This document shows, piece by piece, positions 24,301 to 41,860 of a stretch of DNA of 60,396 bases. The stretch's first letter is position 1; every line of letters starts with the position of its first letter. This DNA comes from a virus. The translations under genes and the position numbers were made by a program. The notes under the pieces were generated by a model, which saw nothing but the letters and a program-made list of their open reading frames with translations, searched no databases and was not told the origin of the DNA. The DNA is taken from the IMG/VR virus record IMGVR_UViG_3300037848_000009, positions 1 to 60,396 of that record; one strand, written 5' to 3'.

Positions 24301-24556
24301 AGACATTTTCAAGTATCGCACGCCTCGCAGTGCTGTGCGATATTCGCTGGAATACGAACTGATGGAAGTTGCCCGTTGGAAAGGCTATGCGGACGAAGAG
24401 GAGCTTTTCCAAAAACCCCCAGACGTGCAGGCGCGCGCAATTGCGCACTATCGCATCTATCATCAAATACAGGCAGTGCTTGCTCACGAGCAAGCCACAG
24501 AGGCAAAACGGCAGCGAAACGCAACACGAAACACAGGAAGGCGAAAGAAGCGTTAA
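24290..24556 (+). CDS. Tail chaperone extension (gpT-like), probably made by frameshift
   Basis: This frame is open from 24260 and codes plausible protein from ~24299 (RDIFKYRTPRSAVRYSLEY, then EVARWKGYADEEELFQK). Its first start codon (GTG 24335) has no Shine-Dalgarno site and falls after clearly protein-like sequence. The frame is +1 (equally -2) to the gpG-like gene, and AAAAATAG at 24293-24300 offers a slip site at the stop. The product would be a gpG-T fusion of ~245 residues. The exact slip point is not determined. Confidence 0.6.
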   Translation, partial: YKNRDIFKYRTPRSAVRYSLEYELMEVARWKGYADEEELFQKPPDVQARAIAHYRIYHQIQAVLAHEQATEAKRQRNATRNTGRRKKR

Positions 24557-27466
24557 ATGGCAGTGCAGGAAGTTGGTATTCGGCTCGTTGCGCTCGATTC
24601 GCGCCGGTTCAACCGGGCGGTTAAGTCTGCCGATGATGTGGTTGCAGACCTGCGAAGCGAACTCAATGCAACCGCACGCACGGCCAGGCGGAGCGGTGGC
24701 GATATTGATGGCCTATCGGCAACCATGGCCGCGATACCGACAGGCGCCGTCGTTGCTGGCACAACAGCCATTGCCGCAGGCATAGGTGCCATCGGCGTCG
24801 CATCGGTCAGTGCTGCTGCTGATTTTGAGCAATCTATGGCGCGCGTCGGGGCCGTGTCTGGGGCAACAACCGAAGAGTTAGAAGAGCTTGAAGCTGTTGC
24901 CAAGGAGATGGGGAGCACCACTGTGTTCAGTGCCCGCCAGGCAGCAGATGGCATGTCATTTCTGGCAATGGCCGGATTTGACGTGAATGAAACGATTGAC
25001 GCCATGCCTGGCGTGTTAAACCTCGCTGCTGCTGGCCAGATGGAACTGGCGCGCACCTCTGATATTGCCTCCAATGTCCTGTCAGGCTTTCGTCTGAACG
25101 CTGACCAGATGACCCGCGTCTCGGACGTGATGGCCGCCACGATGACCAGCGCCAATACCAATATTGAGCAGCTTGGCTTCGCAATGAGTTATGCCGCGCC
25201 GATTGCGGCAGATATGGGTATCAGCATTGAGGAGACTGCCGCCGCGATTGGTCGCCTGAGTGACGCGGGCATCCAGGGCGAGCGGGCTGGCACAGCCCTA
25301 CGCGGCATTATGCTTACGTTGTCAGCACCCACGGCAAGTACCCGCAATGCCATGGAAGACCTGAACATTGCGGTAACCGACGCGCAAGGCGAATTCCTGC
25401 CGCTCGCTGATATTGTTGGGCAGTTTGAAGAGCGACTGGACGGGATGACCGACGCCCAGCGTAGCGCGGCCCTCGGCACGGTCTTTACCACCGAGCAGAT
25501 CGGCGCGTTTAATGTGTTGTTGGGGGTGGGCAGCGATGAACTAGCCAGCTACACCGATGAACTCGAAGCAAGTGGCGGGGCTGCCGAGTCACTTGCCGGG
25601 CAACAGATGGCGACATTCCAGGGGGCCATGACCGAACTCCAGAGCGCCGTGGAAGGTGTGGCGATTGAGGTCGGCCAGGAACTGCTGCCGGTGATGACCG
25701 AACTCACGCGGGATGTGTTGATCCCGTTTGTGCGCACCTATGGCCCGGAGTTGGTTAACCAGACGGCTGCGTTTGCGCAAGAAGTTACAGACCTGTATGC
25801 TATCCTCAAGCCCCTGCTTGATCTAATGAACAATGAGTCAGGCCCCGAATCAGTACGGGCCGCACTGGCAGTGTATCGCGGTGAGTATGCCGAGGCGACC
25901 GGGACGGTGATCGATGCCGTCGGCGCGGCTAATCGCTCAGCAGCAGACTTTGCCACCGTGCAGGCCACAGCCTTGCAGGATGTTGTTACGGAAATGCAAA
26001 ATCTCGATCCTGCTGCCGAAGACGCCGCTGGTGCCGTTGATGCATTCGGAAATGCGGTCAGCGTGGCAAATGAAGAACTGGAGAGCATGCGCGAAGCCGC
26101 GCGTGATGCTGGCCTGCGCGCATTCCGTGATGCGGTGCAGACCGAGGTAGACTTCCTTGCCGAGCGAGAAGATGCACATCGCAGCCACAGGGAACGAATG
26201 GTCGATATCACTGCAGATGGCGAGGAGCGCCGCATCCGTGTGCAACAAGACCTGGCCGAGTCAGAGGAGCGCTTCCAACGCGACACCGCTGAGAACCAGG
26301 CGCGCATGGCCGAGGAACTGGCCGAGGCCGAAACCCAGGCCGAGCGTCAAGCAGCCTACGACCGACACAACGAGCGCCAGGCGGCAATAGATGAGCGAAT
26401 TATCCAGGCACGTGAGGCAAACACCGAAGAATTGCAAAACCTGGAAACCGCAAATGCTGAAAAAGCAGCAGCGGAAGCGGAGGCGTTTGCAGAACAGGAG
26501 CGTATTGCCGCTGAGGCATATGCCCGCCAGCAGGCAGAGCAGATGGCCCACCTTGGGCAAATGCTCATAGACTATGCGACTGCACAGGCCGAGATGAACG
26601 GTGTGAGTGCTGATGCTCTTGCTGAAATGACTTCGCAAATTGCAGATGAATACGGCGTCCAACAATCACTCACCGAGCGATCCTTTGGGGATATGACCCG
26701 TGTGATCGACCAGTGGGCAACTAGCGGTGGAAATGACGCTAATCGCTATATTGGCAGCATGCGCGACGTGCAAAGCGCGGCAACCGCAACTCAACAGCAA
26801 GTGAATGCCAGAATTGAACAACTGACACGGCAAGCAACGGAGGCATTCCAACGCGGTGAGTTAGGACCAGAGCAATACGCGCAACGATTGCAGCAGATAC
26901 CTGGCGAAGCACGCGCGTCAGTCGAGGGCACCAACAATGCACTCAGGCAACTTACCACTGAAATGATAACCGCACACAGTCTGGATAGCACGGCAGCGCA
27001 GGATGTGTCCCGTATACAGTCTGATATTAATGAAATCCCGCGTGAAGTGACCACAATCCACCGGATCAAGCAGCAAGCAGAAGCACAGAAGCGGACGGCT
27101 ACTGCAAGCGGCGGTGGCGGGGCTGCTGTCGCAGGTGCCCGCGCGCGTGGGGGTCCTGTCGGGGCATCGGCATTGTACGAGGTTACCGAGCCGGGGGTCG
27201 GGCCGGAACTGCTCACGTTTGGCGGGCGGCAGTACCTTATGACGCCACCCACCGGGACTGGCGAGGTATCGCCATTAGACAGCCCTCGTGTTGCGATGCC
27301 GAATACCAGCACAACGAGCACCAGCACATTTGCACCAGTCGTGAACCTGAATATCACCACATCGGGAGACATGGGCGCAACCACACAGCAGATTGCAGCA
27401 GCCATTGAGGACACGGTTATCAATAGCCTATTGTCTGGTTGGAACAGAGCAGAAAGTAGTCGATAA
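24557..27466 (+). CDS. Tail tape measure protein (TP901 type)
   Basis: 969 residues. The N-terminal part has the TP901 core: SAAADFEQSMARVGAVSGAT, ELEAVAKEMGSTTVFSARQA, FLAMAGFDVNETIDAMPGVL. A small membrane-like stretch lies at ~55-80 (GAVVAGTTAIAAGIGAIGVA). Residues ~520-650 are a long charged coiled coil. The length predicts a tail of roughly 145 nm at about 0.15 nm per residue, typical of a siphovirus. The start ATG is 1 nt after the gpT-like stop. Confidence 0.95.
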   Translation: MAVQEVGIRLVALDSRRFNRAVKSADDVVADLRSELNATARTARRSGGDIDGLSATMAAIPTGAVVAGTTAIAAGIGAIGVASVSAAADFEQSMARVGAVSGATTEELEELEAVAKEMGSTTVFSARQAADGMSFLAMAGFDVNETIDAMPGVLNLAAAGQMELARTSDIASNVLSGFRLNADQMTRVSDVMAATMTSANTNIEQLGFAMSYAAPIAADMGISIEETAAAIGRLSDAGIQGERAGTALRGIMLTLSAPTASTRNAMEDLNIAVTDAQGEFLPLADIVGQFEERLDGMTDAQRSAALGTVFTTEQIGAFNVLLGVGSDELASYTDELEASGGAAESLAGQQMATFQGAMTELQSAVEGVAIEVGQELLPVMTELTRDVLIPFVRTYGPELVNQTAAFAQEVTDLYAILKPLLDLMNNESGPESVRAALAVYRGEYAEATGTVIDAVGAANRSAADFATVQATALQDVVTEMQNLDPAAEDAAGAVDAFGNAVSVANEELESMREAARDAGLRAFRDAVQTEVDFLAEREDAHRSHRERMVDITADGEERRIRVQQDLAESEERFQRDTAENQARMAEELAEAETQAERQAAYDRHNERQAAIDERIIQAREANTEELQNLETANAEKAAAEAEAFAEQERIAAEAYARQQAEQMAHLGQMLIDYATAQAEMNGVSADALAEMTSQIADEYGVQQSLTERSFGDMTRVIDQWATSGGNDANRYIGSMRDVQSAATATQQQVNARIEQLTRQATEAFQRGELGPEQYAQRLQQIPGEARASVEGTNNALRQLTTEMITAHSLDSTAAQDVSRIQSDINEIPREVTTIHRIKQQAEAQKRTATASGGGGAAVAGARARGGPVGASALYEVTEPGVGPELLTFGGRQYLMTPPTGTGEVSPLDSPRVAMPNTSTTSTSTFAPVVNLNITTSGDMGATTQQIAAAIEDTVINSLLSGWNRAESSR

Positions 27467-27864
27467 TGCGCAACCGTTTCAATTTTGGCACCATTCGCTT
27501 CAGCTATGAAAGCCTGAGCGGAGACGGCTCTACTGTTCGGGCGTATTATGGCGAGCGCGCTGCGGAGGACCGTGCCGAATGGGAAAATGAAGAACAGTGG
27601 GAACTACTACGATTCATCGGCACAACTGAGGCGAGCGCCCATGCGTACCAGATACAATACATTCTCACTCAGCAAGTGGAAATCAAAGGCCAGTCGAATT
27701 ATGACAACCTGCGAACTGCAGCCGTGCGCAAAAGACCTGGCACGTGGGATAACAGCCTTGAAAGTTACACCAGTGTCATTATTGACACATTCGGTGTGCC
27801 GCGCCGTGTGGATTGTGATGGAATATGGCGCGGCTCAATTACGTGGCGAAGGTTGCGGGGGTAA
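27466..27864 (+). CDS. Small tail-tip protein
   Basis: 132 residues, TAATG-coupled to the tape measure. Residues are mixed alpha/beta (FNFGTIRFSYESLSGDG, YQIQYILTQQVEIKGQ, ESYTSVIIDTFGVPRRV). Position suggests a distal-tail or tail-tip component. No family recognised. Confidence 0.6.
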   Translation: MRNRFNFGTIRFSYESLSGDGSTVRAYYGERAAEDRAEWENEEQWELLRFIGTTEASAHAYQIQYILTQQVEIKGQSNYDNLRTAAVRKRPGTWDNSLESYTSVIIDTFGVPRRVDCDGIWRGSITWRRLRG

Positions 27865-27870
27865 GTTTTT

Positions 27871-30800
27871 ATGACCTGGCCTACCAATAATGACACCTAT
27901 GAATATCGGCTGCGCTGTTGGATTGCGGGCGTCCCTTACAAGCTGGCAGCGTTTCCGGCGCGGCGCATTGAATTAGGCCAGCGCACCACCTGTCCCGTTG
28001 AACTTGATCGGGCTGTGCCTGTCTCGAACAATCCACAGACGGCGCGCATTGATGTGGGGGTCTTTGTTGACGGGGGTATTCTTTGGAAACGCTTTGTCAC
28101 GGGCTATTTTTTGCATGACCAGACCGCAGGCGGGCCGCAATTGTACCGGGGCACCATCATTGATTGCCTCTGGAAAATGGACACTGCATTACAATCAGAT
28201 ATTGTCTGGAGTAACACGACGGTGGTAGACGCGCTGACAGACAGCACTGATGGGTTGTTTGCGCGCGCGGGGCTGGATGCCAGCGAGCAGGGGTTTGTGT
28301 TTGATCCCGGCACCGTCTGGAACCTGGGTAATGTCGCAGATATCACCATTGAGCAGGGCACCACCATTCGCGACGTGTTTGATCGTATCCTTGAGCACGC
28401 CGGATTGACGTATTTTGTCAATGCAGGCGGTGCCGTCTGCGTTGTACCAGATGTCAGTATTCCTAATCAGAACGGGGCCCCAACGTTTTCGAGCGGTATT
28501 GATAACGATTTCAGCTTACCAGATGGCACACTAGGGCTGAACAGACCAGAACGGCTCTGGACCGATTGGCAGGCAGTCATCATCTCGTACACGGCAACCG
28601 GGCCAGAGATTGACGGGGCCACCCCGAACGCCACCGTGAGTACATCATTCTTCAGTGTTGGCAAAGAGGACGGTAGCAATTTTCCGTATTATCAAACAAC
28701 TGAGGTGTGTGAGGCAAAAGCGCGTCAAATTGTGCGCAGGTCGTGTGCGCGAACCCAATCAGCGTCGTTTCGCGCTAATCTCAATCCTGAGATTTTCTCG
28801 TGGCAAAGCATCAAACTCTTTTGTCCAGAAATCGGAATTGATAGCGTTGAGTCGGTCATTGTGCGAAGTACCGCCAATACGGGCGGTATCACCACGTTTA
28901 TTATTGATTTCGGACCATCGCTGGTTGCCACAGACACCACCGTCGAGCCGCCTCCTGATGACAATGGCGACGGTGGTATACTGGAACCGATTGGTCTGAT
29001 TTCCGGGGTCGATCCTATCGCATCGATCACGTATATCATTGATTACGAGCGCGATAATGCTGGCAACGCCATCTATTATGTATCTGCAGACGGCACCGGG
29101 TCGCTTTCCAATTCAGGTGCAGGCGTGACATACTCCTGGGATGCGACAACCGGCAGCACCAACGGCAGTCCCACCAGCAGCACCGAGGCCAGCGATATAT
29201 TTACCTATAGTAGCCTGACCGATGCACAACTCACATTAACCGTCGCTGATGCCAGCGATGCAACCCTGACCGATACAATCACCGTGTTTTTTGACGACCC
29301 ATCCATCGATGTGTTTACACGCGTGCTCACGTACGAGTTAGACGATGCCTGGTATGTTGATTACAACCCCGATATTGCAGCGGCGGTATTTGCCCCGGCA
29401 GGCGAAACGTGTGTGGCTGTCCCTCGCTACAACGAAGAGGGATTTCTATGGGCGATTTTCACCACCGGGGGCAACACGAAAGTATATCGGCGTGATCCTG
29501 AAAACTACCTGTCTGCGCCTGAAGAAATCGTCACCCTGGCCGGGTCGGGGGTCGATATTTTCGTGGGGGAGCCATTCGTTAGTGAACAATTGCTCAACAC
29601 GGTACTCGTTGCTATTGACCAGTCTATTGCCTATACACGCAACGCAACCGGTGACGAACCAACATGGCAAACAACAACGGCAACGGGCGAAACCCTGACA
29701 AGCGTGCTGGTGAGTGCCTACAACGATCAAGAGTTTTTTGCAACCGGCGGGAACAAACTCTTTCGCAGCACAGACAGCGGAGCAACCTGGAACACAATCA
29801 TCACCAGTGCTGACGCCGGGGCAATAGCTGAGGATTTTGCTATTGCCCCCTGGGGGACCGCGGCGGTCTTTTCGGGCGCGTCAACTGATGCGCGGCGCAT
29901 CTCTTTTGCCCAACCGGCACTCACCGTCGCCTATACAGACACGCCAGCAGGCGGCGAGGAATTCCAAACCATTACGCCGTTGCTTTTGCGCAATGGATAC
30001 AAAATCGGCAGTAGTGCAGGTGATGTTTACCTGCTGCTGCAAAACAGCGTAACACCCACCCAATTTGATGTTACGCGCCTGGTGAGCAGCGGCCCGGCAG
30101 ATATTCAGCGCGCCGTCCGTGATGGCGAATTGCCACTGGCGTTTTTTGCTGATGACAATGGCGTATACAAGCAGGCGGCAGACGAGGCAACACTCACACT
30201 GATTGACAGTGGGGTTTCGCGTCGCGTCGGGTTCGGTCCGTTGCGGGCGGCCATTGTGTCCTCCGAGACGGTACTCATCCCCACCGTCGGGCTATCCGGC
30301 GGCGGCGTGTACGAATACACTGGCGGCTCGTGGGCGCTGCGTAACAATGGCCTGCCCGCTACCACGCTGTATGGGCAGGGAGTGATGGCAGAGCCGAATA
30401 ACCCTGACATCTGGTATGCGGTGTTCACTACCAACAGTGCCGGTGATGTGCAGGTGTCAGGCGGCGAGCTTGTCGGCTCGGACGGCAGCACCGGCATATT
30501 CTGGCGATGGGATGGGAGCACCTGGGCAAATGTGCCGATATCAGCTGCAAGCGTCCCGGCAAACTCGCTCTTCTTTGAATTCACGGTCAGGGGCGCAGAG
30601 TGGGCAATCAGTGTGAACGATGTCTCTACATTCAGTGTGAGCATGAGCTACGTTTTTCGTGGTGTTGGGGCTACACAGGGCACGACAGCAAGTATTGCGA
30701 ACGTGGCAATTGGTGGCGTCGTCTTTATGGCTGATCGCACGATTGCCGCAACGTCGATATTTAGTCCCAGCCTGGCGACTGATGACAGTCTGTATTATGT

Positions 30801-31302
30801 CAGTGGCTCAGGATTAATCCTGTCCGGAGGTGTTGGCACGACATTTGACTCCGATCCGCGCTATCCGGCATCGTATCCTACAGGTGATCGCCTGGTCGTG
30901 TGTGGATATGACACGAATAGCGGCAGACCGGGGCGGGTGTATGCCACCCCGGACTACCGAAACAACCAGATCACTGAGCGGCTTGGAAATAACACGGCCT
31001 GGAGTGTTGTTGTCACGACAGATGAGCGCGTCTATGTCGGCGGCGGCGGTGGCAATACACGCACGGGTATTGCGGAGATTACCGATCTCTTTGGCACGCC
31101 ATCGGTGTCGGTGGTGGCTGCTTCTGGTGTGGCAGTCGGGCGCATCGGCATAGATCAGCAGACACGCTCGCTCGTGGCTGCGCTTAACAGTGCAAAAGAT
31201 ACGGTGTATCTCTGGGATGGCACGACGGAAACAACCATCGACGCAAGCAGCCTGACAGCGGCAAACCTGTCGGATTTTATAGAAGTTATCAGGAGGTCAT
31301 AA
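27871..31302 (+). CDS. Baseplate/tail-tip protein with PKD-like and propeller domains
   Basis: 1143 residues. Residues 1-370 resemble a baseplate hub (RRIELGQRTTCPVELDRAVP, FVTGYFLHDQTAGGPQLYRG, EQGTTIRDVFDRILEHAGLT). Residues ~390-475 form an Ig/PKD-like domain (NAGNAIYYVSADGTGSLSNS to LTDTITVFFDD). The remainder contains BNR-like strands (KLFRSTDSGATWNTIITSAD). It likely forms the tail tip and carries host-binding modules. It ends 1 nt before the next gene. Confidence 0.75.
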   Translation: MTWPTNNDTYEYRLRCWIAGVPYKLAAFPARRIELGQRTTCPVELDRAVPVSNNPQTARIDVGVFVDGGILWKRFVTGYFLHDQTAGGPQLYRGTIIDCLWKMDTALQSDIVWSNTTVVDALTDSTDGLFARAGLDASEQGFVFDPGTVWNLGNVADITIEQGTTIRDVFDRILEHAGLTYFVNAGGAVCVVPDVSIPNQNGAPTFSSGIDNDFSLPDGTLGLNRPERLWTDWQAVIISYTATGPEIDGATPNATVSTSFFSVGKEDGSNFPYYQTTEVCEAKARQIVRRSCARTQSASFRANLNPEIFSWQSIKLFCPEIGIDSVESVIVRSTANTGGITTFIIDFGPSLVATDTTVEPPPDDNGDGGILEPIGLISGVDPIASITYIIDYERDNAGNAIYYVSADGTGSLSNSGAGVTYSWDATTGSTNGSPTSSTEASDIFTYSSLTDAQLTLTVADASDATLTDTITVFFDDPSIDVFTRVLTYELDDAWYVDYNPDIAAAVFAPAGETCVAVPRYNEEGFLWAIFTTGGNTKVYRRDPENYLSAPEEIVTLAGSGVDIFVGEPFVSEQLLNTVLVAIDQSIAYTRNATGDEPTWQTTTATGETLTSVLVSAYNDQEFFATGGNKLFRSTDSGATWNTIITSADAGAIAEDFAIAPWGTAAVFSGASTDARRISFAQPALTVAYTDTPAGGEEFQTITPLLLRNGYKIGSSAGDVYLLLQNSVTPTQFDVTRLVSSGPADIQRAVRDGELPLAFFADDNGVYKQAADEATLTLIDSGVSRRVGFGPLRAAIVSSETVLIPTVGLSGGGVYEYTGGSWALRNNGLPATTLYGQGVMAEPNNPDIWYAVFTTNSAGDVQVSGGELVGSDGSTGIFWRWDGSTWANVPISAASVPANSLFFEFTVRGAEWAISVNDVSTFSVSMSYVFRGVGATQGTTASIANVAIGGVVFMADRTIAATSIFSPSLATDDSLYYVSGSGLILSGGVGTTFDSDPRYPASYPTGDRLVVCGYDTNSGRPGRVYATPDYRNNQITERLGNNTAWSVVVTTDERVYVGGGGGNTRTGIAEITDLFGTPSVSVVAASGVAVGRIGIDQQTRSLVAALNSAKDTVYLWDGTTETTIDASSLTAANLSDFIEVIRRS

Positions 31303-32649
31303 ATGCCGGACCAGACCCGAACCGATTATCTCATGGGACGCATCCTGGGGCGTTCTATCCAGATTGGTGACAATGCCGTGCGTTTAGCGCGCCAGGATGC
31401 GCAGTCCATTGCGAATAACATTGCAAATGACATAGTGGAGGATGCTTTGGGTGATTTTCAATTCGACTTCGCAGGCCAATTAGAGGTTGTCGAGCCGGTT
31501 ATTCTGTTTGATATCTCGCACGAATACGACAAGCAGCCGCTCTTGATAGAGGAAACAACTGTCGGCGGCGGGAATACTGCAACGTTTGACAACAACGAAC
31601 GCCTTGTCAAAATGACATTAGGCGGGACGAATACCGGCAGCGTAACCCGTCAGAGCCGTCAATACATCCGCTATCAGCCAGGCCGTACGGCCTCTGCGCA
31701 GTTCACGGGCGTGATGGGCGCAGCAACTGAAAATGTGACACAGCGCATCGGTTTGTTTGACGATGACAATGGGATGTTCTTTGAGCAGACTTTCACCGAA
31801 AAGCGGGTTGTTATTCGCAATAGTAGTAGTGGTGCAACTATTGACGATCCTGTTGCCCAGGCTGATTGGAACGTTGACAAACTGGACGGCACCGGCAAAA
31901 GCGGTATCACCATTGACTGGACCAAAAATCAAGTATTCGTGATTGACTATTTGTGGCTTGGCACGGCGGGGGCCAATTTCGGGTTCATCCTGGATGGCGA
32001 TATTGTGTGGTGCCACAAAGCGCCCCAATCAAACGTCAATACCACCAGTTTTACACAAACGGGGGTGCTGCCGGTCAGGTATCAGATCGTCAACGATACA
32101 TCCGCCGCCGCCGCCGAGATGAAAATGATCTGCGCCGCCGTAAAAAGCAAGGGCGGCGTCCAGAACGAAAGGGCGCTGCCGTTCAGCGCTACGACGGGTA
32201 CCGCGGGGCGCTCTATTGGGGGGACACTTGATCCGGTCATTGGTATTCGGCAGAAAAACACCTTCAACACTATCACCAATCGAGGCATTACGATCCCGTA
32301 TGGTGTCAATATCACGACAGAGGATCAGGGCATACGCTGGGCGGTGCTATACGATCCAACGTCGGTCACCGGGGCCTCGTGGGTATCGGCGGACGCTGAC
32401 AGTCATATGGAGTATGACATATCAGCGACAGCCATATCAGGCGGCATTAAGATTATTAGCGGCTTTCTGCTGGTCGGCAATGGCAATAACGACATCGGCA
32501 ACCTGTCAAACGTCATCAATAGCCGCCTGCCGCTGGGGCTCAATGCAGCAGGCGCGTCTGGCAGTGGCATTGCGCTCTATCTGGTGGCGGAGTCGTTTAC
32601 GGGCACCGCCACTGTGCGAGCTGCGATGGAATGGGGCGAGCTACGGTAG
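31303..32649 (+). CDS. Tail fibre/receptor-binding candidate
   Basis: 448 residues. The N-terminal ~60 residues are helical (LARQDAQSIANNIANDIVED), possibly for attachment or trimerisation. The rest is strand-rich with Gly/Thr/Asn bias (TVGGGNTATFDNNERLVKMT, SARYQ-like strands, RLPLGLNAAGASGSGIALYL). It is the last gene of the tail operon, the usual place of the host-specificity protein. No enzymatic motif seen. Confidence 0.65.
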   Translation: MPDQTRTDYLMGRILGRSIQIGDNAVRLARQDAQSIANNIANDIVEDALGDFQFDFAGQLEVVEPVILFDISHEYDKQPLLIEETTVGGGNTATFDNNERLVKMTLGGTNTGSVTRQSRQYIRYQPGRTASAQFTGVMGAATENVTQRIGLFDDDNGMFFEQTFTEKRVVIRNSSSGATIDDPVAQADWNVDKLDGTGKSGITIDWTKNQVFVIDYLWLGTAGANFGFILDGDIVWCHKAPQSNVNTTSFTQTGVLPVRYQIVNDTSAAAAEMKMICAAVKSKGGVQNERALPFSATTGTAGRSIGGTLDPVIGIRQKNTFNTITNRGITIPYGVNITTEDQGIRWAVLYDPTSVTGASWVSADADSHMEYDISATAISGGIKIISGFLLVGNGNNDIGNLSNVINSRLPLGLNAAGASGSGIALYLVAESFTGTATVRAAMEWGELR

Positions 32650-32889
32650 GGAGCCCCTTCCTTTCTTCCTCCTATACTGCTGTCGTTCGCTCAACTCATC
32701 AAACAGCTTCCGCTGTCGCTGACCACGCTCGGCAGCATAGCGTTCCACACTGGCGCGGGTAACGCGCCCCTGGTTGCCGATGGTAGGTACAACTTCCAGT
32801 TTGCCGCGCTGTACCATCTTGCGCTCGGCAGCATTGCATACGACTAGCAGCGCGGCAGCTTCGCGGTAGGTGAGGGTATCATCTGGCAT
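32641..32889 (-). CDS. MerR-like HTH (excisionase-type) protein
   Basis: 82 residues. LTYREAAALLVVCNAAERKMVQRGKL resembles the helix-turn-helix of excisionase/MerR-like small DNA-binding proteins, followed by TRASVERYAAERG and a basic tail. It overlaps the end of the fibre gene by 9 bp on the opposite strand. May regulate transcription. No integrase is visible in this window. Confidence 0.65.
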   Translation of the reverse strand: MPDDTLTYREAAALLVVCNAAERKMVQRGKLEVVPTIGNQGRVTRASVERYAAERGQRQRKLFDELSERQQYRRKKGRGSLP

Positions 32890-32890
32890 T

Positions 32891-33112
32891 CTATACCTGG
32901 CTTTCCAGATATTGCAACACCTTTACCACATCATACCCGTCGGCAACGACCAAGTCATACAGGTTTTTGTGCATGAAAGCTTCATAAACTGTGCTGAACT
33001 CTTGCGCTGTATCTACAATCGACAGCGCGTCGGGCGTGTGTACTGTAATGCGTATGATGCGGTCTGCTGTCTGGCGTACGATTGCCTCTTGTGCTGGTTG
33101 TGGTTTGTTCAT
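32891..33112 (-). CDS. Hypothetical protein
   Basis: 73 residues from the ATG at 33112 with GGAG about 10 nt upstream. An upstream in-frame start at 33190 would run into the non-coding RNA region and is not preferred. Short alpha/beta protein (ADRIIRITVHTPDALSIVDT). No family recognised. Confidence 0.5.
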   Translation of the reverse strand: MNKPQPAQEAIVRQTADRIIRITVHTPDALSIVDTAQEFSTVYEAFMHKNLYDLVVADGYDVVKVLQYLESQV

Positions 33113-33224
33113 CGCGCTGTCTCCTGTGTTGCTATGGGCGGCTTGCGCCGCCCGTGTATAAGTTTGATTCCGACTAATAGTCTGTGCCAAGCAAGTGGTG
33201 GTATCACTAGGGGTTTGTATGGTT

Positions 33225-33384
33225 GGAAACTGGCAGGAGTCGAACCTGCACCTCCAGACATCTACACCCTCGTGATAGTCATTGCCTCTGTCAAGACTTT
33301 GAACTATCCGTAAAGTGGAACACAGACACCCGTGACAGCGGATACCTGTGTACCTGGCGTCCTGCCGTTAAGACGACAGTTTCC
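33225..33384 (-). ncRNA. tRNA-like, pseudoknotted RNA candidate
   Basis: Reading the minus strand, GGAAACTG (33384-33377) pairs with CAGTTTCC (33232-33225), and AACCA follows. The 3' end has a perfect T-arm, GCAGG-TTCGACT-CCTGC (33249-33233). The 5' end has a D-arm-like CGTC/GACG. CCAGG TACAC (33357-33348) pairs with GTGTA (33267-33263), a GATG bulge, and TCTGG (33258-33254), in the place of an anticodon stem or of tmRNA helix P2. Inside, TATCCG/CGGATA and CTGTC/GACAG interleave as a pseudoknot. It fills the gap between two leftward genes. At 160 nt it is too long for a plain tRNA. Confidence 0.5.
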
Positions 33385-33427
33385 ACGTGGTTGCCGTTAC
33401 AATGCCACGGACACGGGCGCAAATCTA

Positions 33428-33697
33428 TCAGTCATTATTGTTGTAATCGCACACCGCTTTTGCAGCCCTCGCATAATCATCATACGTATGCGGTTTGCCG
33501 TCAATGACTGCGCGGGTTTCACATCCAAAAGGGCCGTACCCGTGAGTAATCTCGACGTGTTGTACCCCGTTTTCAATCGCCTGAACAAGAAATGCTATTT
33601 CCCGTTCGTTGGGGAAGAACTCCCCGAAGTCGTTGTATAGGTCGGGGTTTTCTTTAGCAATTGCCAAAGCCTTTTCACGTGCTGTTGTGTTTGTCAT
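33428..33697 (-). CDS. Hypothetical protein
   Basis: 89 residues, ATG at 33697 with AAGGAGA upstream. It contains REIAFLVQAIENGVQHVEIT and GYGPFGCETRAVIDGKPHTY, an alpha/beta arrangement without a known family. First gene upstream of the tRNA-like RNA. Confidence 0.55.
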   Translation of the reverse strand: MTNTTAREKALAIAKENPDLYNDFGEFFPNEREIAFLVQAIENGVQHVEITHGYGPFGCETRAVIDGKPHTYDDYARAAKAVCDYNNND

Positions 33698-33785
33698 CTG
33701 TCTCGTCTCCTTGTCTGTGTTCGTTGTCTCTCAACTGACAATAGGGGATATGATAGAAGATTGCTACGAAACCGCTATCTGCGCA

Positions 33786-34187
33786 TTACGATCCTGTATC
33801 AAATCGCTTGACATACGACAGGATATCAACCTCATCAGCCGTTGCAAGCCATTTCAAACCGTTTGTGCCTTGCAGCGTCACCAGCCTATAGTCGTCAAAC
33901 GGGGCGAGTGCTGCCCAATACTTACAAAGCTTAGGCGATGAAAGTACGCGCTGCTCTGCAAGATGTTGCCATGCTTCCAGGTCGCCATTTTCGCGGTAGT
34001 CGGCCTTGCGTACCTTGGGATGGCGCGCGCCAATGGTGTCACGATAGCCCGGTGCGCTCATCTCAGGCGGGCCAGCCGCTACCCAGGCGTCACGCAATCG
34101 GCGCGATGTAAATCTCAGCACCCGATCCGCTCGCTGTCCATTGTTAACGACGTTACCACCATAAGCGTGTTCGATTGCGTAAAACAT
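33786..34187 (-). CDS. Hypothetical protein
   Basis: 133 residues, mixed composition (FTSRRLRDAWVAAGPPEMSA, YRENGDLEAWQHLAEQRVLS). No motif recognised. A GGCCCCGGC/GCCAGGGGCC hairpin lies between this gene and the next upstream one (34206-34230) and may limit readthrough or mark a leader. Confidence 0.5.
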   Translation of the reverse strand: MFYAIEHAYGGNVVNNGQRADRVLRFTSRRLRDAWVAAGPPEMSAPGYRDTIGARHPKVRKADYRENGDLEAWQHLAEQRVLSSPKLCKYWAALAPFDDYRLVTLQGTNGLKWLATADEVDILSYVKRFDTGS

Positions 34188-34243
34188 AGATTTTCCTCTT
34201 CCGGCAAGGCCCCGGCATCGCGCCAGGGGCCTTTGTGTTGGGA

Positions 34244-34597
34244 TTACAGATAGTCAGAGGCTTCTAGCTCCTGCCATGCCGCCTCAATCGCCCATTGCTT
34301 ATAAGATGAACGATTGAATAGCTCGTCGTCTGGATTGTCGCCATAGGAAACGACGAGTTCATTCACAAGCTTTTCCCGCTTCCCTTCCCAGTCACACCTA
34401 AGGTCGTCTGCGTATTCTTGCGCCGCCGCTTGTGTGTCGAAGATGCGCTGGCCTTCCATATCCGCCGACCATAGGGCAGTGCCACTTTTAATCTCATACA
34501 CTGATTTCGGAAGCATACCGTAATAGATATACGTCGATACCGTCCATTTACCCCTCCAGTTTTCTTCGTTCTGATACTTCGGGTTTGGTCCTCCCAT
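34244..34597 (-). CDS. Hypothetical protein
   Basis: 117 residues. The leader has the recurring module of this phage: a GCCCG/CGGGC hairpin directly before AGAAAGGA, then the ATG. The protein contains FDTQAAAQEYADDLRCDWEG, a short helical pattern typical of small phage accessory proteins. Function unknown. Confidence 0.55.
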   Translation of the reverse strand: MGGPNPKYQNEENWRGKWTVSTYIYYGMLPKSVYEIKSGTALWSADMEGQRIFDTQAAAQEYADDLRCDWEGKREKLVNELVVSYGDNPDDELFNRSSYKQWAIEAAWQELEASDYL

Positions 34598-34652
34598 GGT
34601 GTGTTCCTTTCTGCCCGATACGATGCCTCGGAGCCGGGCTGCTTATTTTTAC

Positions 34653-34952
34653 TTAGACCACTTCAAACGCCATATCGAAATTCTGATGCATTTGCTCGAT
34701 AGCATTCTCATAGAATGCAGGCACATTATCATCACCCATATCATCATCACTCAGCGCGGGCACTGGAACAATAATGCCAGGGCTATCATACAGATTGCCG
34801 ATGTTATTGTTCCACAGCAGCCGATATGTGCCGTCTATGAACAGTTCTACACTGTAACCGCTGCCGCCAAACGATGCCTGTGTGCTCTTGTCGATAGCAA
34901 TCTCGATCTCTTCCTGGAATGCTGCGTATGCTGACTGAAATTGTTCCTTCAT
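34653..34952 (-). CDS. Hypothetical acidic protein
   Basis: 99 residues with an acidic patch (LSDDDMGDDN) and helical ends. AGAAGGGA precedes the ATG. No family recognised. DNA-mimic behaviour is conceivable for so acidic a small phage protein, but this is only a guess. Confidence 0.5.
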   Translation of the reverse strand: MKEQFQSAYAAFQEEIEIAIDKSTQASFGGSGYSVELFIDGTYRLLWNNNIGNLYDSPGIIVPVPALSDDDMGDDNVPAFYENAIEQMHQNFDMAFEVV

Positions 34953-34996
34953 CGTTGTTTCCCTTCTGTATCGCTCATATCGTTTTCTATGTCCCT

Positions 34997-35067
34997 ATTA
35001 TAGCGCGAACAGGGGTAGAGTTGTATGATAAATTCCTGATAGACACCTGATAAATACCTGATAAAAG
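34997..35067 (-). promoter_or_regulatory. Leftward promoter with 11-bp spaced operator repeats
   Basis: A leftward -10 TATAAT lies at 35002-34997. Upstream of it CCTGATA occurs three times at exact 11-bp spacing (35035-35041, 35046-35052, 35057-35063), one helical turn apart. That is the usual geometry of an operator array or activator sites. No good -35 box is visible, which fits activator dependence. It would drive the genes at 34952 and below. Confidence 0.55.
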
Positions 35068-35103
35068 TGACAGGGGTATCTTGCGCGTACAAAATCCAGA
35101 CAA

Positions 35104-35141
35104 CACAAAACCCCGCCTTTCTGGGGTAAAACTGGCGGGGC
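35104..35141 (-). terminator. Leftward intrinsic terminator
   Basis: On the minus strand, CCCCGCC (35141-35135) pairs with GGCGGGG (35118-35112), followed by TTTTGTGTTG. It should end the FtsK-like operon. Bases 34953-35197 hold no gene, only this terminator and the promoter/repeats at 34997-35067. Confidence 0.7.
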
Positions 35142-35197
35142 CTGTGCTATGCACGTACTTGATTTATGCCGCCCGTCTTTCGGACGACCTGGTGCTA

Positions 35198-35356
35198 TTA
35201 TAGCATAGCAGCAACAATAGTCGCTGCAATAACTGCCGAGGCAAACGCGATGCCCCGCTGGTGAGCACGTGAGCCATTGCGCTGCGCATACCACACGATA
35301 GCAAATACAAGCAATGCAACAACGATGAGGCGCGCCAGGTAGATCAGGTGGTGCAT
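35198..35356 (-). CDS. Small membrane protein
   Basis: 52 residues; the ATG at 35356 overlaps the previous stop (TGATG). One hydrophobic helix (YLARLIVVALLVFAIVWYAQ) and a second near the C-terminus (GIAFASAVIAATIVAAML). Function unknown; co-translated with the ATPase genes. Confidence 0.6.
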   Translation of the reverse strand: MHHLIYLARLIVVALLVFAIVWYAQRNGSRAHQRGIAFASAVIAATIVAAML

Positions 35357-35520
35357 CACTCCCGCTCGCGTGTCGCAATGCCACGCATCGCCCCGCTCAC
35401 CCGGCTCGCGGCATCGTTCACACCCTGCGTGTAGCCGCGTCCGTAGCCAATGTTCCAGCCAGCAACCAGACCAGCGATCAGGACGATGATCAGCACGATG
35501 ATGTAAGGGTCCAGATTCAC
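35356..35520 (-). CDS. Small membrane protein
   Basis: 54 residues; the GTG at 35520 overlaps the FtsK-like stop (GTGA). It has one N-terminal hydrophobic helix (IIVLIIVLIAGLVAGW) and a Gly/Tyr-rich then basic tail. Couplings on both sides make it a probable real gene. Likely a partner of the membrane ATPase. Confidence 0.6.
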   Translation of the reverse strand: MNLDPYIIVLIIVLIAGLVAGWNIGYGRGYTQGVNDAASRVSGAMRGIATRERE

Positions 35521-36995
35521 GCGCCCACCTTTCTTTCTTGCAGCGCACCACGCACCACGGCCTGCACCTGCTCGCTGGCTTCCGTGTAGCGCCTTCCGTT
35601 CTTTGCTCCGCTGATTTCACGTGCAATTTCTGCCATACTTGCCCCGTTTGCGAACATATCCAGAATACGGCGTTCTGCTGCAGTATACTCTTTTGCCGTG
35701 GGGTTGCCAGTGCCTTGCCGAGGTAGCGCCGGTTCCAGGGTTTCAGCTTGACTGTGCAGGTCATCTGGCAATAGCCTGGCAATACCCTGGTTGCTTGCGA
35801 GCGGGACCCTGGCAAGGGTGGTCTGTGGCCTTGCGGCGCTGCGCAAGAGTACCACGCCCTGCCCAAGTTGGCGCTCATAGGTGGCAATATCCTTTTTGCT
35901 CATATCGAGTAACTGGACCGCGCTATGCCCGGCGCCGCCAGAATAGTATGCGGTGCGCAGGTTCTCACGGATTTCGCCGCCGGTTTGTAAGGTTTTGGTG
36001 AGCAGGTCTTGCGAACTGGTCACGAGATACAGTCGCACCTTGCGACCCTCCCTGAGTAGGCTTCCCAGCGTGTCCATAGCACCAGGGACGTTGGCAACAA
36101 TGGCTGGCAATTCGTCCACATACGCCACGAGCGGCGCGCCAGGGCGCTGGCCTGCGTTGCGCAGGTCGTAGCGCCGCGTCATTTCATCAGCGAGCCAGCG
36201 AAACAGGTCCTCTATCTGGCCTGCCTTGACTGCCGGTGTCAGGTGCAACCGCTGCGCTATGGCGCGCCAATCTTCCCCGCTCTCGGCATCGTATGCAGCG
36301 AAGTGGGGGTCTGCTATCACACACTGCACATTGCACGCCAATAGCTGAGAGAGCAGCAAGCGGCCCGTGTTACTCTTGCCGCCGCCGGTGGCTCCTACCA
36401 GCCCGGTGTGCATCAGATTTTTGGCGCTGACCGTGATGGGCTGCCCATCGTCTCCAATGGCAAGCAGGATGCTGTGGGGCGTCGGGGTATGGCTGATGCT
36501 TGCCAGGTCAACAGGGCCGGGTAAGGTCGGGGATTGCGCCACATCACCCGGCAATACAGATGCCGCCTCATGCTTCGCGTGCTGTGTATAACTGAGGCTG
36601 TGCGGGACGTGGGGGTGCCGGTTATTGGCATCAGCCACGAGTACCTGTGCTTGCAACCCAAGCTGGCGCATTGCGTAGCGCCGATCCCACTGCACGCCCT
36701 GTGCTGCGTTGATAGCGGCCAGCACCAGACTGTAGCCGACACCTGCCAGGAACAGAAACACGAGCATACCGAATGCCACGCTGCCATAGGTCTGGGCAGC
36801 AGACACAAGCGGCTCGTGTTGTTGCTGCAAAGCATCCCAGCGCTGCGCTTGTTGTAGCCGTAGCTCTGCGTGACCTTGCTCATAGGGTAGCATCGCACTG
36901 CGAGCGGCTACGGCGTCGGGGCTGGTGTAGGTAACGATGCCCCACGCGACCAGGGCAAAAGCAGCGATAGTAATGATAAAGGGGGCAAACTTCAT
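35517..36995 (-). CDS. Membrane-anchored FtsK/HerA-like ATPase
   Basis: 492 residues. Two membrane helices at ~5-22 and ~72-94 flank a charged loop. Walker A is GATGGGKSN (201-208) and Walker B is LVAYVDELP (Asp293-Glu294). It also has ADPHFAAYDAESGEDW and VTSSQDLLTKTL, typical of FtsK/TraD/HerA pumps. A C-terminal winged-helix-like region follows (EYTAAERRILDMFANGASMA). Such ATPases move DNA in division, conjugation or plasmid maintenance and are unusual in a siphovirus. It has its own leader and is co-translated with two tiny membrane proteins. Confidence 0.85.
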   Translation of the reverse strand: MKFAPFIITIAAFALVAWGIVTYTSPDAVAARSAMLPYEQGHAELRLQQAQRWDALQQQHEPLVSAAQTYGSVAFGMLVFLFLAGVGYSLVLAAINAAQGVQWDRRYAMRQLGLQAQVLVADANNRHPHVPHSLSYTQHAKHEAASVLPGDVAQSPTLPGPVDLASISHTPTPHSILLAIGDDGQPITVSAKNLMHTGLVGATGGGKSNTGRLLLSQLLACNVQCVIADPHFAAYDAESGEDWRAIAQRLHLTPAVKAGQIEDLFRWLADEMTRRYDLRNAGQRPGAPLVAYVDELPAIVANVPGAMDTLGSLLREGRKVRLYLVTSSQDLLTKTLQTGGEIRENLRTAYYSGGAGHSAVQLLDMSKKDIATYERQLGQGVVLLRSAARPQTTLARVPLASNQGIARLLPDDLHSQAETLEPALPRQGTGNPTAKEYTAAERRILDMFANGASMAEIAREISGAKNGRRYTEASEQVQAVVRGALQERKVGA

Positions 36996-37023
36996 ATGTC
37001 AGACCTCCATATGATAAGATAGA

Positions 37024-37088
37024 GTTGGCAGGCCAGCGGGGGACAGACCCCCTCGTTATGCCCTGCGTCACCAGGGCGGCCTGCCAAC
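37024..37088. other. Three-way-junction inverted repeat in the ATPase leader
   Basis: Outer arms GTTGGCAGGCC (37024-37034) and GGCCTGCCAAC (37078-37088) match over 11 bp. Inside are two perfect hairpins: GGGGG/CCCCC (37038-37042, 37048-37052) and GCCCTG/CAGGGC (37060-37065, 37072-37077). A leftward extended -10, TGC + TATACT (37094-37089), abuts the outer arm, so it may act as DNA (operator or cruciform) or partly as mRNA leader. No T run follows. Confidence 0.7.
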
Positions 37089-37126
37089 AGTATAGCACAT
37101 TCGGCCTGAGAGTACTATTCTTCCTT

Positions 37127-37765
37127 TTACAGTAAACATTTTGCCTGGTGCTCTGGCAACCAGTAGGGCGGGCGGATACCCATCAGGATGCCTGTTTCAT
37201 CCGGCAATGCTCGCATCTGTTTACCATCGTCGTCATATTCGCTCCAATCTGCGTGCCACGGCTCAATAAGCCAATCCACGCGCCCCCATCCCTGGCTGGT
37301 CTTTTTGCCGATAAACAGCATTGTTCTGAGGAGCGCCGCAATGCGATCCGCATCTCCCACCGCGTACCAGGAGACGAACAGAGCGTGCCGGTAGAACACA
37401 GGCATATGATACGATTTATAGCGCCCCGCCTCAACAAGCACTTTACCACGCCTGTTCTTAAAGTCCACAAGCCCACTGTGTTGATCAAAGCGTTTGTTCC
37501 AATGGTCGGTCCCCTCTGTTACCGTGCCGTGCCAGTGCGCAAAAGAGCACGCATAGTACCAGTGTTCGCCTATACCACGCCGATCAAGTGGCAGATCGAC
37601 CAGGGGCACGTCAAGTAACGCGCCCGAAACCGTGACATCTTGCGGGCCGTATGTTTCACGCATTGCCTGATACAGCAAGATGCCATCCAGGGGCAACGTC
37701 GCATCACTCAATACAGGTGTGCGCAATTTAGCTGTGATGCGAAGCGGCTCTAATCCTCCAGACAT
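37127..37765 (-). CDS. csf3: Type IV CRISPR Csf3 (Cas5-like RAMP)
   Basis: 212 residues from the ATG at 37765 inside the end of the cas6-like gene. It begins GGLEPLRITAKLRTPVLSDA and LPLDGILLYQAM, the Cas5-type first strand and helix. The Gly-rich segment FIGKKTSQGWGRVDW near residue 160 matches the Csf3/RAMP pattern. Csf3 caps the 5' handle end of the guide RNA in type IV complexes. It is the last gene of the leftward cas operon. Confidence 0.8.
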   Translation of the reverse strand: MSGGLEPLRITAKLRTPVLSDATLPLDGILLYQAMRETYGPQDVTVSGALLDVPLVDLPLDRRGIGEHWYYACSFAHWHGTVTEGTDHWNKRFDQHSGLVDFKNRRGKVLVEAGRYKSYHMPVFYRHALFVSWYAVGDADRIAALLRTMLFIGKKTSQGWGRVDWLIEPWHADWSEYDDDGKQMRALPDETGILMGIRPPYWLPEHQAKCLL

Positions 37766-38397
37766 ATATGTCCCCATCCTTGCGTCGTGTGGCTCCCCAC
37801 GCCGCTATATTCGGCAAAACGTGCCAGTATTGCTATCCATCGTTGCGGTGCCTGCATACGATAGCGAACACGCCCGACAAAACCGTTTAACCAGTGATGG
37901 CGATAGCGTACCCGGCGCGTCTCGCCTGCCAACTCTGTGATTTTGATGTGGTCATACTGGATTTCTGGCACAGCTATATCGGTAATCACCAGCCACCGCC
38001 GCAACACGGCACCAAAAACCACGTTCGGCGCTGGCGAGACGTGACATACACTCTTGCTGCGCACAAAAAAAGGCGACAAAAAGCGTAGCGTTATGTATTG
38101 CTGTGGCTCTGTTGTGTCGATAAGTGATTGATACGACACAGGCGCGCTGCTACGTTGGACTAATGACGATTGATTAAGCGCAGCGCATAGTTCCCCCGTC
38201 AAGGCAGACAGCCAGAGCAATGAGCATCCATCGAGATATGCAGCATAGGGCGGTAGTCCAGTATTATCATGTAGACGTGTTGCCAGGTCGGGCGCGGTCT
38301 GACGAAGGACATGCAACGCTGCATAAAGCGCACCTTCATATTCCGTACATGCTTCCTGGTGGCGCCAGGGCGTGACGTAATGAGCGAGATTACACAT
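37750..38397 (-). CDS. cas6: Cas6-like pre-crRNA endonuclease (Csf5-like)
   Basis: 215 residues from the ATG at 38397, overlapping the cysH-like stop by 8 nt. The C-terminal half follows the Cas6 pattern: ITLRFLSPFFVRSK, PAPNVVFGAVLRRWLVI, then the Gly-rich loop YSGVGSHTTQGWGHI near the end. Cas6 cuts CRISPR precursor RNA within repeats. The catalytic residue cannot be assigned by eye. IV-A loci have such a protein; IV-B loci typically do not, so its place beside a cysH gene is odd. Confidence 0.75.
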   Translation of the reverse strand: MCNLAHYVTPWRHQEACTEYEGALYAALHVLRQTAPDLATRLHDNTGLPPYAAYLDGCSLLWLSALTGELCAALNQSSLVQRSSAPVSYQSLIDTTEPQQYITLRFLSPFFVRSKSVCHVSPAPNVVFGAVLRRWLVITDIAVPEIQYDHIKITELAGETRRVRYRHHWLNGFVGRVRYRMQAPQRWIAILARFAEYSGVGSHTTQGWGHICLED

Positions 38398-39136
38398 ACT
38401 GGCGCACCTCCGGTATTTCGGCAGCAAGTTTATTCCACAGTTCAGGGTAATTTCGCTTCAGCCAGGCATAACGTCCCCACCGGCGTTTCGTCTCGCCTGC
38501 CCAATACGAGACACGCTGGTCATCCTCTGGCATATCCCACATCTTGTCATATGTGCCAGCATACGGCACATTATTACTCACGATATAGGCCCACACATCA
38601 TCATATGTCCAGTGCCCTAATGGTTGGCATTGCCACACGCCGTACTGCCGCGAAAAAAACAGCGCGCCATTGTAGCGCACGCTCTGGCGGCGCCCGTAGC
38701 TCTCTGCTGCCCGGATGCCATACACACAACCGTCATAGCCATATTCGGTAATGAGTGCCCTCACTGGCTGATAGACTGTGCTTTTCATCGTCTGTCGGTC
38801 CAGATCAGCGCCGCCTTCAAGGCCAAATCGTTTCAGTGTTTCAAGAAACGGCTCAGATGTGGGGTAGCGCAAACAATTCGGCGTATTGCCTATCAGGTCC
38901 GATACCTCTGGAAAACAGTTGTCCGCATCCAGGTAAACAGCAGGCACAGCAGGCGCTTGCTCACGCACCAGGTGGAGTACACACACACTATCTTTGCCGC
39001 CGCTGAATGCGATGTAGGGTCGCTCGCAATGTGACAACCAGTTATCAATAATGCCGCGGCTGTATTGGACGCGCTGGCGAAAACCCTTTAAGCGGCTGTG
39101 AGTTTCAAAACGCAGCCGCACAACGTCTGGCATCAT
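38390..39136 (-). CDS. cysH: CysH-like ATP pyrophosphatase of the type IV locus
   Basis: 248 residues; ATG at 39136 overlaps the csf2 stop. The PP-loop YIAFSGGKDS (45-50 = SGGKDS) binds ATP, followed by VYLDADNCFPEV and MKSTVYQPVRALI. PAPS-reductase-family proteins of this kind are a hallmark partner of type IV-B CRISPR loci, where their exact job is unsettled. A second, different CysH-family gene lies at 49378-50286. Confidence 0.88.
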   Translation of the reverse strand: MMPDVVRLRFETHSRLKGFRQRVQYSRGIIDNWLSHCERPYIAFSGGKDSVCVLHLVREQAPAVPAVYLDADNCFPEVSDLIGNTPNCLRYPTSEPFLETLKRFGLEGGADLDRQTMKSTVYQPVRALITEYGYDGCVYGIRAAESYGRRQSVRYNGALFFSRQYGVWQCQPLGHWTYDDVWAYIVSNNVPYAGTYDKMWDMPEDDQRVSYWAGETKRRWGRYAWLKRNYPELWNKLAAEIPEVRQYV

Positions 39137-40104
39137 TGCATTGCCCCCAGGAACGCACGAATATCATTGCCGTGCTGCTGTAAATGCTGCTGATATTGCG
39201 CACCCAACGGTAGCGATAAAGCATCCCCCTGCACTTCGGTGCGGCTGTCAATGCGCAGCCAGTTGTCGAACTTGACCGCCACTTTGCCTAACCCGACAGC
39301 ACTTTTGCCGCCAATATAGGGGCGCTTGCTGAACTCAACCAGGGTCGTCGCAAACGCCTCAAATTCGACCTCGGACACATCATTCAGTGCAAGTTCCCAA
39401 TAGAAGCGCGTGCCCGCCGCCAGTGTTTCTACGTAGTACATCATCTGCTGATGCTGGCCTGTATCGCGTTGCGGCTCTGTTAACGCGGTCGCCTCCGCCT
39501 TCTCGCGGCGTGTATCATCAAGCAGCTTGCGCGTCTCGCCAGTGAGCAACGGCTGATAATGTTCGTTTTTGGCATCATCTTTGCGCGTGTACATCTCCTC
39601 CTGCAGATACTCCCAGATGGATGTCGTGGCGTGTAACTGATACGCCTCCGGCAACAGGTGGGTAGTCTCCTCGCAGATAGGGATCAGTTTGCCTGTGATT
39701 AACTTCCCCGGCATAATCTGATTGCCCATCCCGCCACCAAAAACGCCCACCAGCGGGATAAGCGAACGCACGCGGCGAGCGGCGTCCACGTCCAAACCGT
39801 GCCCACCACTTTTACTCAGCGAGCCGCCAGAAAACAGGAAATAAAACGCGCTGAGGGGCATGCCAGATACTGTACTATCCTGCTCCACGCCGTAGCCAAG
39901 CTGGCGACACATATGCAGCATGCCAATATCGCGCAACAGGCCGCGCAACCCATTACCGCTAATGACTGGCACATCCTCAACGCTGCCGTTGGGTTGGACG
40001 ATCTTCTCACGGCGTAGCTTCTGGTTGATACCAAACGACTCGCCGCCATTGTGTGTGATACTACTTAGGGCAGTGACCACACCCTCAAAATAATATGTCT
40101 GCAT
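39133..40104 (-). CDS. csf2: Type IV CRISPR Csf2 (Cas7-like backbone)
   Basis: 323 residues, ATG in a TAATG overlap with the small-subunit gene. RAMP features: VPVISGNGLRGLLRD (~45-59), GGGMGNQIMPGKLITGKLIP, and a C-terminal glycine loop GGKSAVGLGKVAVKF (~265-279). Cas7 subunits polymerise along the guide RNA. The order around it (csf1, small subunit, csf2, csf3 region) confirms a type IV effector operon. Confidence 0.88.
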   Translation of the reverse strand: MQTYYFEGVVTALSSITHNGGESFGINQKLRREKIVQPNGSVEDVPVISGNGLRGLLRDIGMLHMCRQLGYGVEQDSTVSGMPLSAFYFLFSGGSLSKSGGHGLDVDAARRVRSLIPLVGVFGGGMGNQIMPGKLITGKLIPICEETTHLLPEAYQLHATTSIWEYLQEEMYTRKDDAKNEHYQPLLTGETRKLLDDTRREKAEATALTEPQRDTGQHQQMMYYVETLAAGTRFYWELALNDVSEVEFEAFATTLVEFSKRPYIGGKSAVGLGKVAVKFDNWLRIDSRTEVQGDALSLPLGAQYQQHLQQHGNDIRAFLGAMQ

Positions 40105-40472
40105 TAAAAAAGCTCCTCTCCTGTCCGCGCCACTGGCTGTTCAGCTTCTATTGCGTCGCGCCGTTCTTCGTTCATCACGCGCACCAGTAGCACCAGGAGT
40201 GCTGTTTCGTCGCGTAAGGTTTTGAGGATGGCGCGGTCCTGACCACTTGTAAGCACGGTCTGAACGGTTTGCGTGCCGTCTTTGCGTAGCCGAATATCAA
40301 GCCGCCTGCACAGCACATCAAAAAAAGTCGAAAGTTTGCTGGTGTAGGCTGCGCTCTTGATCTGATTCTGAAACTGTTCCCAGATGTTCCTCGCATACTT
40401 GCTCTTGTAACCGTCCGCTATCCCCCGCCACAGGGGATAGAGTAGCTTCTCCGCTATCTCCTGATGCTCCAT
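40104..40472 (-). CDS. Type IV small subunit (Cas11-like)
   Basis: 122 residues, all helical (RNIWEQFQNQIKSAAYTSKL, RAILKTLRDETALLVLLVRV), of the size and place of the IV-B Cas11 protein between csf1 and csf2. Its start lies 155 nt inside the csf1 frame in a different frame. Cas11 proteins line the inner side of the Cas7 filament. Called by position, size and helical content. Confidence 0.65.
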   Translation of the reverse strand: MEHQEIAEKLLYPLWRGIADGYKSKYARNIWEQFQNQIKSAAYTSKLSTFFDVLCRRLDIRLRKDGTQTVQTVLTSGQDRAILKTLRDETALLVLLVRVMNEERRDAIEAEQPVARTGEELF

Positions 40473-41775: not shown

Positions 41776-41850
41776 ACCCTGCCTTGCCTTGCCCAGCCGA
41801 GCCCAGCCTAGCCCAACCCGGCCCTACCAAGCCTTGCCCAGCCGAGCCCT
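41776..41850. repeat. Pentanucleotide array, 15 units
   Basis: On the plus strand, ACCCT GCCTT GCCTT GCCCA and so on, exact period 5 (mostly GCCNN) for 15 units. In the leftward mRNA this is NNGGC repeated, with GG every 5 nt, just before ACAGAAAGGA and the ATG at 41756. It is the only content of the gap 41757-41860. Confidence 0.9.
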
Positions 41851-41860
41851 GAAATGGCGA

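Follow-up and report, generated by a model that had tools for sequence, protein, structure and literature searches.

A putative non-decoding tRNA-like RNA, apparently mobile between phages, with two hairpins in place of its anticodon loop

On its minus strand, the 60,396-nt stretch of viral DNA analysed here (the window; positions 1 to 60,396 of IMG/VR record IMGVR_UViG_3300037848_000009) carries a gene for a tRNA-like RNA of 166 nt in its predicted mature form (33385-33220), in which a cloverleaf shell encloses a two-hairpin insert where the anticodon loop of a tRNA would be. The reading we favour, with a probability of about 0.5, is that of a mobile, non-decoding, tRNA-derived phage RNA that acts as a binding decoy or scaffold, the shell serving as its handle. 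That the locus encodes a real, non-decoding tRNA-like RNA is probable; the decoy or scaffold mechanism, granted such an RNA, is more tentative. The usual explanations for the tRNA genes of phages are decoding needs and the replacement of cleaved host tRNAs. A conserved, transferable and non-decoding tRNA-shaped RNA would point to other phage uses of the tRNA fold, either a scaffold for processing and stability or a decoy that draws in tRNA-binding enzymes and defence nucleases.

Structure of the tRNA-like shell

Position i of the RNA corresponds to window position 33386 - i. The molecule opens with the acceptor strand UGGAAACUG (33377-33385), followed by a U, the D-arm CGUCUUAACGGCAGGACG (CGUCUU-AACGGC-AGGACG, 33358-33375), the 5ʹ strand of the anticodon-position stem, CCAGG (33353-33357), and the insert (33259-33352). 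After the insert come the partner strand UCUGG (33254-33258), AGGU, the T-arm (GCAGG-UUCGACU-CCUGC, 33233-33249, carrying GGTTCGACTCC), the acceptor strand CAGUUUCCA (33224-33232) and, beyond the acceptor stem, a discriminator-position A and a genome-encoded CCA (33220-33223, the CCA being 33222-33220), which are the same in a second copy described below. Pairing is perfect throughout the acceptor, D, T and anticodon-position stems, and the elbow nucleotides (GG in the D-loop, UUCGA in the T-loop) are intact, as is the CCA. Folding without constraint returns the cloverleaf shell and its two inner hairpins as the minimum-energy structure, near-optimal alternatives have the same topology, and the acceptor, D and T arms of a cloverleaf are found both in the unconstrained fold and by ARAGORN -i.

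A preliminary description of this DNA had named acceptor-like ends, a perfect T-arm and a D-arm-like hairpin, all of which are present on the minus strand. Its dimensions need revision: the acceptor stem given as 8 bp has nine perfect pairs, being extended by U33385:A33224, and the insertion given as about 85 nt measures 94 nt between the anticodon-position strands. The stacked acceptor and T stems thereby amount to 9 + 5 bp, 14 bp compared with the 12 bp of a tRNA. The C that had been taken for a His-type C73 lies paired inside the 9-bp stem, which ends in a U-A pair followed by A-CCA; tRNA-His, whose unpaired 3ʹ end would follow a G-1:C73 pair, was therefore rejected. A decoding role is likewise not indicated, since 94 nt stand in place of a 7-nt anticodon loop with U33 and a purine at position 37.

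The shell resembles phage tRNA-Gln. The D-arm and the bases next to it (TCGTCT-AA-GGCAGGACGCC) are nearly identical to those of tRNA-Gln, whose D-arm reads TCGTCTAATGGCAGGACGCC in locus L007; the pairs U1-A72, G2-C71 and G3-C70 are kept, the T-arm is similar, and a covariance model of both RNA copies (R1) detects the L007 tRNA-Gln at 29.9 bits. Unlike tRNA-Gln, the RNA has no anticodon, carries the 94-nt insert, has an acceptor that is two pairs longer, and bears A rather than G at the discriminator position.

The two-hairpin insert

In the minimum-energy and near-minimum-energy structures, hairpin 1 (33320-33351, 13 bp, predicted) begins one nucleotide past the anticodon-position stem and exposes the loop CUGUCA at 33333-33338, while the predicted hairpin 2 (33265-33317, about 20 bp) carries the apical loop UGACAG at 33288-33293. 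With its edges, the insert folds at -35.7, about 3.4 sd below its shuffles, which average -24.5 (sd 3.2); none of 500 was as stable. For a 160-nt span of the RNA, z was -3.0 relative to dinucleotide shuffles, 2 of 200 of which were as stable.

The 6-nt loops of the two hairpins are exactly complementary, and a kissing contact between them is possible on this model, a possibility conserved in both copies. It is unproven, because the change G57C in the second copy breaks a U-G pair of hairpin 1 and the fold of that copy that exposes CUGUCA is 5.8 kcal/mol less stable than its best fold. Hairpin 1 of the second copy also has one C-G pair changed to U-G, and both changes in hairpin 2 retain pairing; at 96% identity, conservation of the loops says little. 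The preliminary description had instead drawn a 10-bp helix (CCAGG+UACAC with GUGUA+UCUGG, with a 4-nt bulge) and an H-type pseudoknot. Both the helix and the pseudoknot (UAUCCG/CGGAUA with CUGUCA/UGACAG) are feasible on paper, yet folding without constraint favours the two hairpins. Forcing UAUCCG/CGGAUA raises the fold from -63.5 to -48.7 kcal/mol, a nested-energy cost of about 15 kcal/mol that leaves the second pseudoknot stem out of account. The kissing-loop model is for this reason preferred, though not proven, and of the two pseudoknot pairings only CUGUCA/UGACAG is retained, as a loop-loop contact that may form. With the conserved leader attached, an alternative fold at -79.0 beats the tRNA-like one (-71.7) by about 7 kcal/mol, and the tRNA-like form may therefore depend on 5ʹ processing for its release.

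Detection by standard tools

Neither ARAGORN at default settings nor Rfam at the gathering threshold detects the RNA. A relaxed Rfam search gave a tRNA (RF00005) match of 19.8 bits in a different register, below the threshold of 29, and no tmRNA match. When introns are allowed, ARAGORN reports a single gene in the window, which is the present RNA; the 60-kb window, shuffled 300 times, gave 7 hits. That the RNA is no product of chance is settled by the 96% identical copy in another phage. Apart from ordinary tRNAs that match in the T-arm, Blast searches of the RNA and of its insert against phages and plasmids yielded only short matches at chance level. Among viral contigs, the exact D-arm 17-mer and patterns joining D-arm, gap and T-arm gave nothing, or tandem tRNA genes, and an acceptor/T-arm pattern in bacterial and archaeal genomes gave three matches that lack correctly placed tRNA arms, judged to be chance. 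Because standard annotation by default ARAGORN and Rfam misses this RNA, others of its kind may be common and unseen.

A second copy in a distantly related phage

Searching IMG/VR for the acceptor combined with the T-arm gave one match, locus L015 in a 75-kb record, and a second pattern, made from the T-arm with its A-CCA end, recovered it as well. This homologue (899-1064) is identical to the window RNA at 160 of 166 positions and lies in a 227-bp block common to both phages (window 33196-33422, 96.5% identical), at whose edges similarity ends sharply. The block includes a 5ʹ leader with the hairpin CGUGG...CCACG (33386-33422; 36 of 37 positions identical) and a 3ʹ trailer (33196-33219; 23 of 24), beyond which the L015 copy has an intrinsic terminator. 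It is the most similar DNA of the two phages, which otherwise appear largely unrelated; their DNA methyltransferase genes (window 47739-49380) share only 86-93% DNA identity.

The window has the RNA behind its tail genes, among small minus-strand genes, and L015 has it just before the portal gene. Phages more closely related to that of the window, L002 (91% identical in a tail protein) and L005 (57% in the ATPase), do not have it and carry other small genes at the site. From these different genome positions and from its absence in closer relatives, the 227-bp unit is judged to move between phages, and its absence from relatives also indicates that the RNA is dispensable. Across the two copies, pairing is kept in 127 of 128 pair cells and through four of the five changes at paired positions. 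The covariation that had been suggested as a check is not seen, as no two-sided compensatory change separates copies that are too similar to show one.

The phage with the second copy also bears a CRISPR mini-array at 20592-21125 of record G005 (whose positions 1-20000 and 20001-40000 are L042 and L043), with 37-nt repeats CTTGCACCCTGCTCAACCGCGCATTGACCATTGCAAC and spacers of 34-38 nt; these spacers matched the window phage and its relatives over no more than 13 nt.

Transcription context and proposed mechanism

In the second phage, the order of elements is that of an operon: a sigma-70 promoter (12/12, with TG; 1968-1940), two ORFs, the RNA (1064-899) as the last element, and an intrinsic terminator at 856-833, CCACCCTTCGCAGGGTGG-TTTTTT (CCACCCTTCGCAGGGTGGTTTTTT). 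There the RNA begins 39 nt past the stop of the second ORF; the corresponding distance in the window is 42 nt, counted from the stop codon of an 89-aa ORF on the same strand (33428-33697), right behind which the shared block starts. For this ORF, no PHROG or Pfam match and no viral relative was found, and the upstream genes of the two phages are unrelated. No convincing promoter or terminator was found close to the RNA in the window, so that its transcription there would depend on read-through. Good sigma-70 promoters occur in the same region in L005 and L002, which argues for a bacterial host. The TTGACA-17-TACACT promoter of these two relatives is missing from the window's minus strand at 33741-33788 and upstream, where flanking sequence is shared, and a local promoter may thus have disappeared from the window operon.

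The shell, the two-hairpin insert and the location after an upstream stop codon are established from sequence and predicted folding. In the mechanism we propose, the RNA would be transcribed within the operon of the upstream gene and released from that transcript by host RNase P and 3ʹ-end processing. The tRNA shell would then stabilise and protect it, acting as a handle for both processing and stability. The 9-bp acceptor and the missing anticodon would exclude it from decoding, and the two-hairpin domain would be the effector that binds a protein or another RNA.

Elsewhere on the minus strand of the window (37127-41112) lies a phage type IV CRISPR-Cas effector module with genes for Csf1/Cas8, Cas11, Csf2/Cas7, a CysH-like PAPS reductase, Cas6 and Csf3/Cas5. 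The CysH-like reductase is a mark of type IV-B, and Cas6 alongside it is unusual; the window showed no CRISPR array. A search for Csf2 in the four phage records that are related or share the RNA detected none, and a link between the RNA and this module is unsupported, given that the second RNA-bearing phage is without Cas7/Csf2. The window also contains short-period C-rich repeats (41781-43219, period about 10 nt) and, at its end (60269-60393), a repeat of 15-nt period that resembles a pentapeptide-repeat gene.

Alternative readings

The position of the RNA behind a same-strand stop codon in both phages, followed in L015 by a terminator, would also suit operon punctuation, in which the tRNA-like fold is cut by RNase P and serves the upstream mRNA as a processing or 3ʹ-end-protection element with no further job; other candidate tRNA-like RNAs, at L022, L031 and L037, likewise sit directly behind same-strand genes. 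This reading is unlikely, since a strongly structured insert kept at about 95% identity exceeds what punctuation needs, and the two phages' upstream genes are unrelated. Less likely still is a tRNA-Gln pseudogene broken by insertion, or a tRNA 3ʹ end retained for integration. The likeness of the shell to tRNA-Gln and an excisionase-like HTH gene about 330 bp from the RNA would fit such a relic, but decay would not keep perfect stems or an insert far more stable than its shuffles. The shell retains its two halves in perfect form, and no integrase or resolvase, including tyrosine and serine recombinases, was found in the records of the two phages, each of which may be a fragment; an attachment-site relic was rejected on these grounds.

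The two remaining alternatives had been raised in the preliminary description, of whose three readings only the third, a new tRNA-like regulator, survives. It is very improbable that 87-94 nt are excised as an intron to leave a decoding tRNA, even though ARAGORN calls a tRNA-Ser(aga) with an 87-nt intron. No excision that leaves a 7-nt loop yields a functional anticodon: the sole loop that keeps U33 has A34 and U37 and reads AGA, which calls for a Ser-type variable arm that this RNA lacks. Furthermore, the acceptor has 9 bp, the minimum-energy and near-minimum-energy folds contain no bulge-helix-bulge at the exon junctions, as an archaeal-type intron would require, the inserted length falls short of a group I intron, and the sigma-70 promoters of the relatives speak for a bacterial host. 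A miniature tmRNA with a 7-codon tag has the smallest probability of all. The T-loop UUCGACU is typical of tmRNA, which also shares tRNA-like ends and a long structured insert with the window RNA, and a helix and pseudoknot can be drawn ahead of a short frame. This frame, GCA ATG ACT ATC ACG AGG GTG TAG (AMTITRV*, 33262-33285), does exist, but it lies paired in hairpin 2 and runs into the spacer that follows, and as a tag it finds no support in comparison, the alanine resume codon GCA being GTA in L015. Unlike tmRNA (SsrA), moreover, the RNA has no G:U identity pair, acceptor pair 3 being G-C when counted from U1 and A-U when counted from the 5ʹ end proposed earlier rather than G3:U70. It matches no tmRNA model of ARAGORN or Rfam and, at under half the usual tmRNA length, is too short for the known architecture.

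Comparison with known tRNA-like RNAs

In the bacterial Y RNA YrlA, a tRNA-mimicking module is fused to another RNA domain, and the ends of the RNA form a Ro-binding stem. The window RNA likewise joins a tRNA-mimicking module to another domain; unlike those of YrlA, its ends form an acceptor, and it has no Rfam match. Its nearest precedent is RNAC (species 1 RNA) of phage T4, a stable RNA seen on Northern blots whose role is unknown (PMC9697503, PMC3014915). At 139 nt, RNAC shares with the window RNA a perfect tRNA T-arm near the 3ʹ end, acceptor-like ends and the lack of a recognisable anticodon arm. It differs in having no sequence similarity, another central fold, a place within a tRNA cluster, an imperfect acceptor pairing and no encoded CCA, and model R1 does not detect it, with no hit in L013 up to E = 10.

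Candidate tRNA-like RNAs at other viral loci

A pattern of T-arm, 9 nt and CCAACCA was found at 23 viral loci. At six of these (five independent), a perfect 9-nt acceptor partner lies 75-178 nt upstream, where 0.04 would be expected at the same loci. Besides L015 (166 nt, 9-bp acceptor and A-CCA), the candidates comprise L018 (4712-4786, 75 nt), with almost no anticodon arm, L022 (/L028; 1586-1763, 178 nt), L032 (2228-2356, 129 nt) and L037 (3320-3456, 137 nt), all with perfect acceptor partners, and L027 (3600-3722, 123 nt), with a D-arm like that of tRNA-Gln and an acceptor partner that includes G:U pairs. In L018, L022, L027, L032 and L037, the anticodon arm is missing or expanded. These five were missed by default ARAGORN and fall below Rfam gathering thresholds, and an Rfam scan of the other candidate loci found only one ordinary tRNA. 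The loci are unrelated in sequence and come from a sample biased by the search pattern, so they are leads rather than proven members. An undescribed, recurrent kind of phage RNA, in which tRNA shells with 9-bp acceptors and encoded A-CCA ends stand behind phage genes with the anticodon arm deleted or replaced by structured domains, may exist, although we hold this with less confidence than our main reading. If it does, phages would exploit the tRNA-processing machinery of their hosts to produce effector RNAs that are stable and do not decode. The window RNA itself would lend the riddle of T4 RNAC a comparative footing.

A tRNA-Arg(tcg)-like gene that is absent from the gene table of Rhizobium sp. 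CB3060 plasmid pCB3060_3 (L011, 339-438) has a 19-nt hairpin insert in its anticodon loop, and 24 nt of its T-arm are common to the window RNA.
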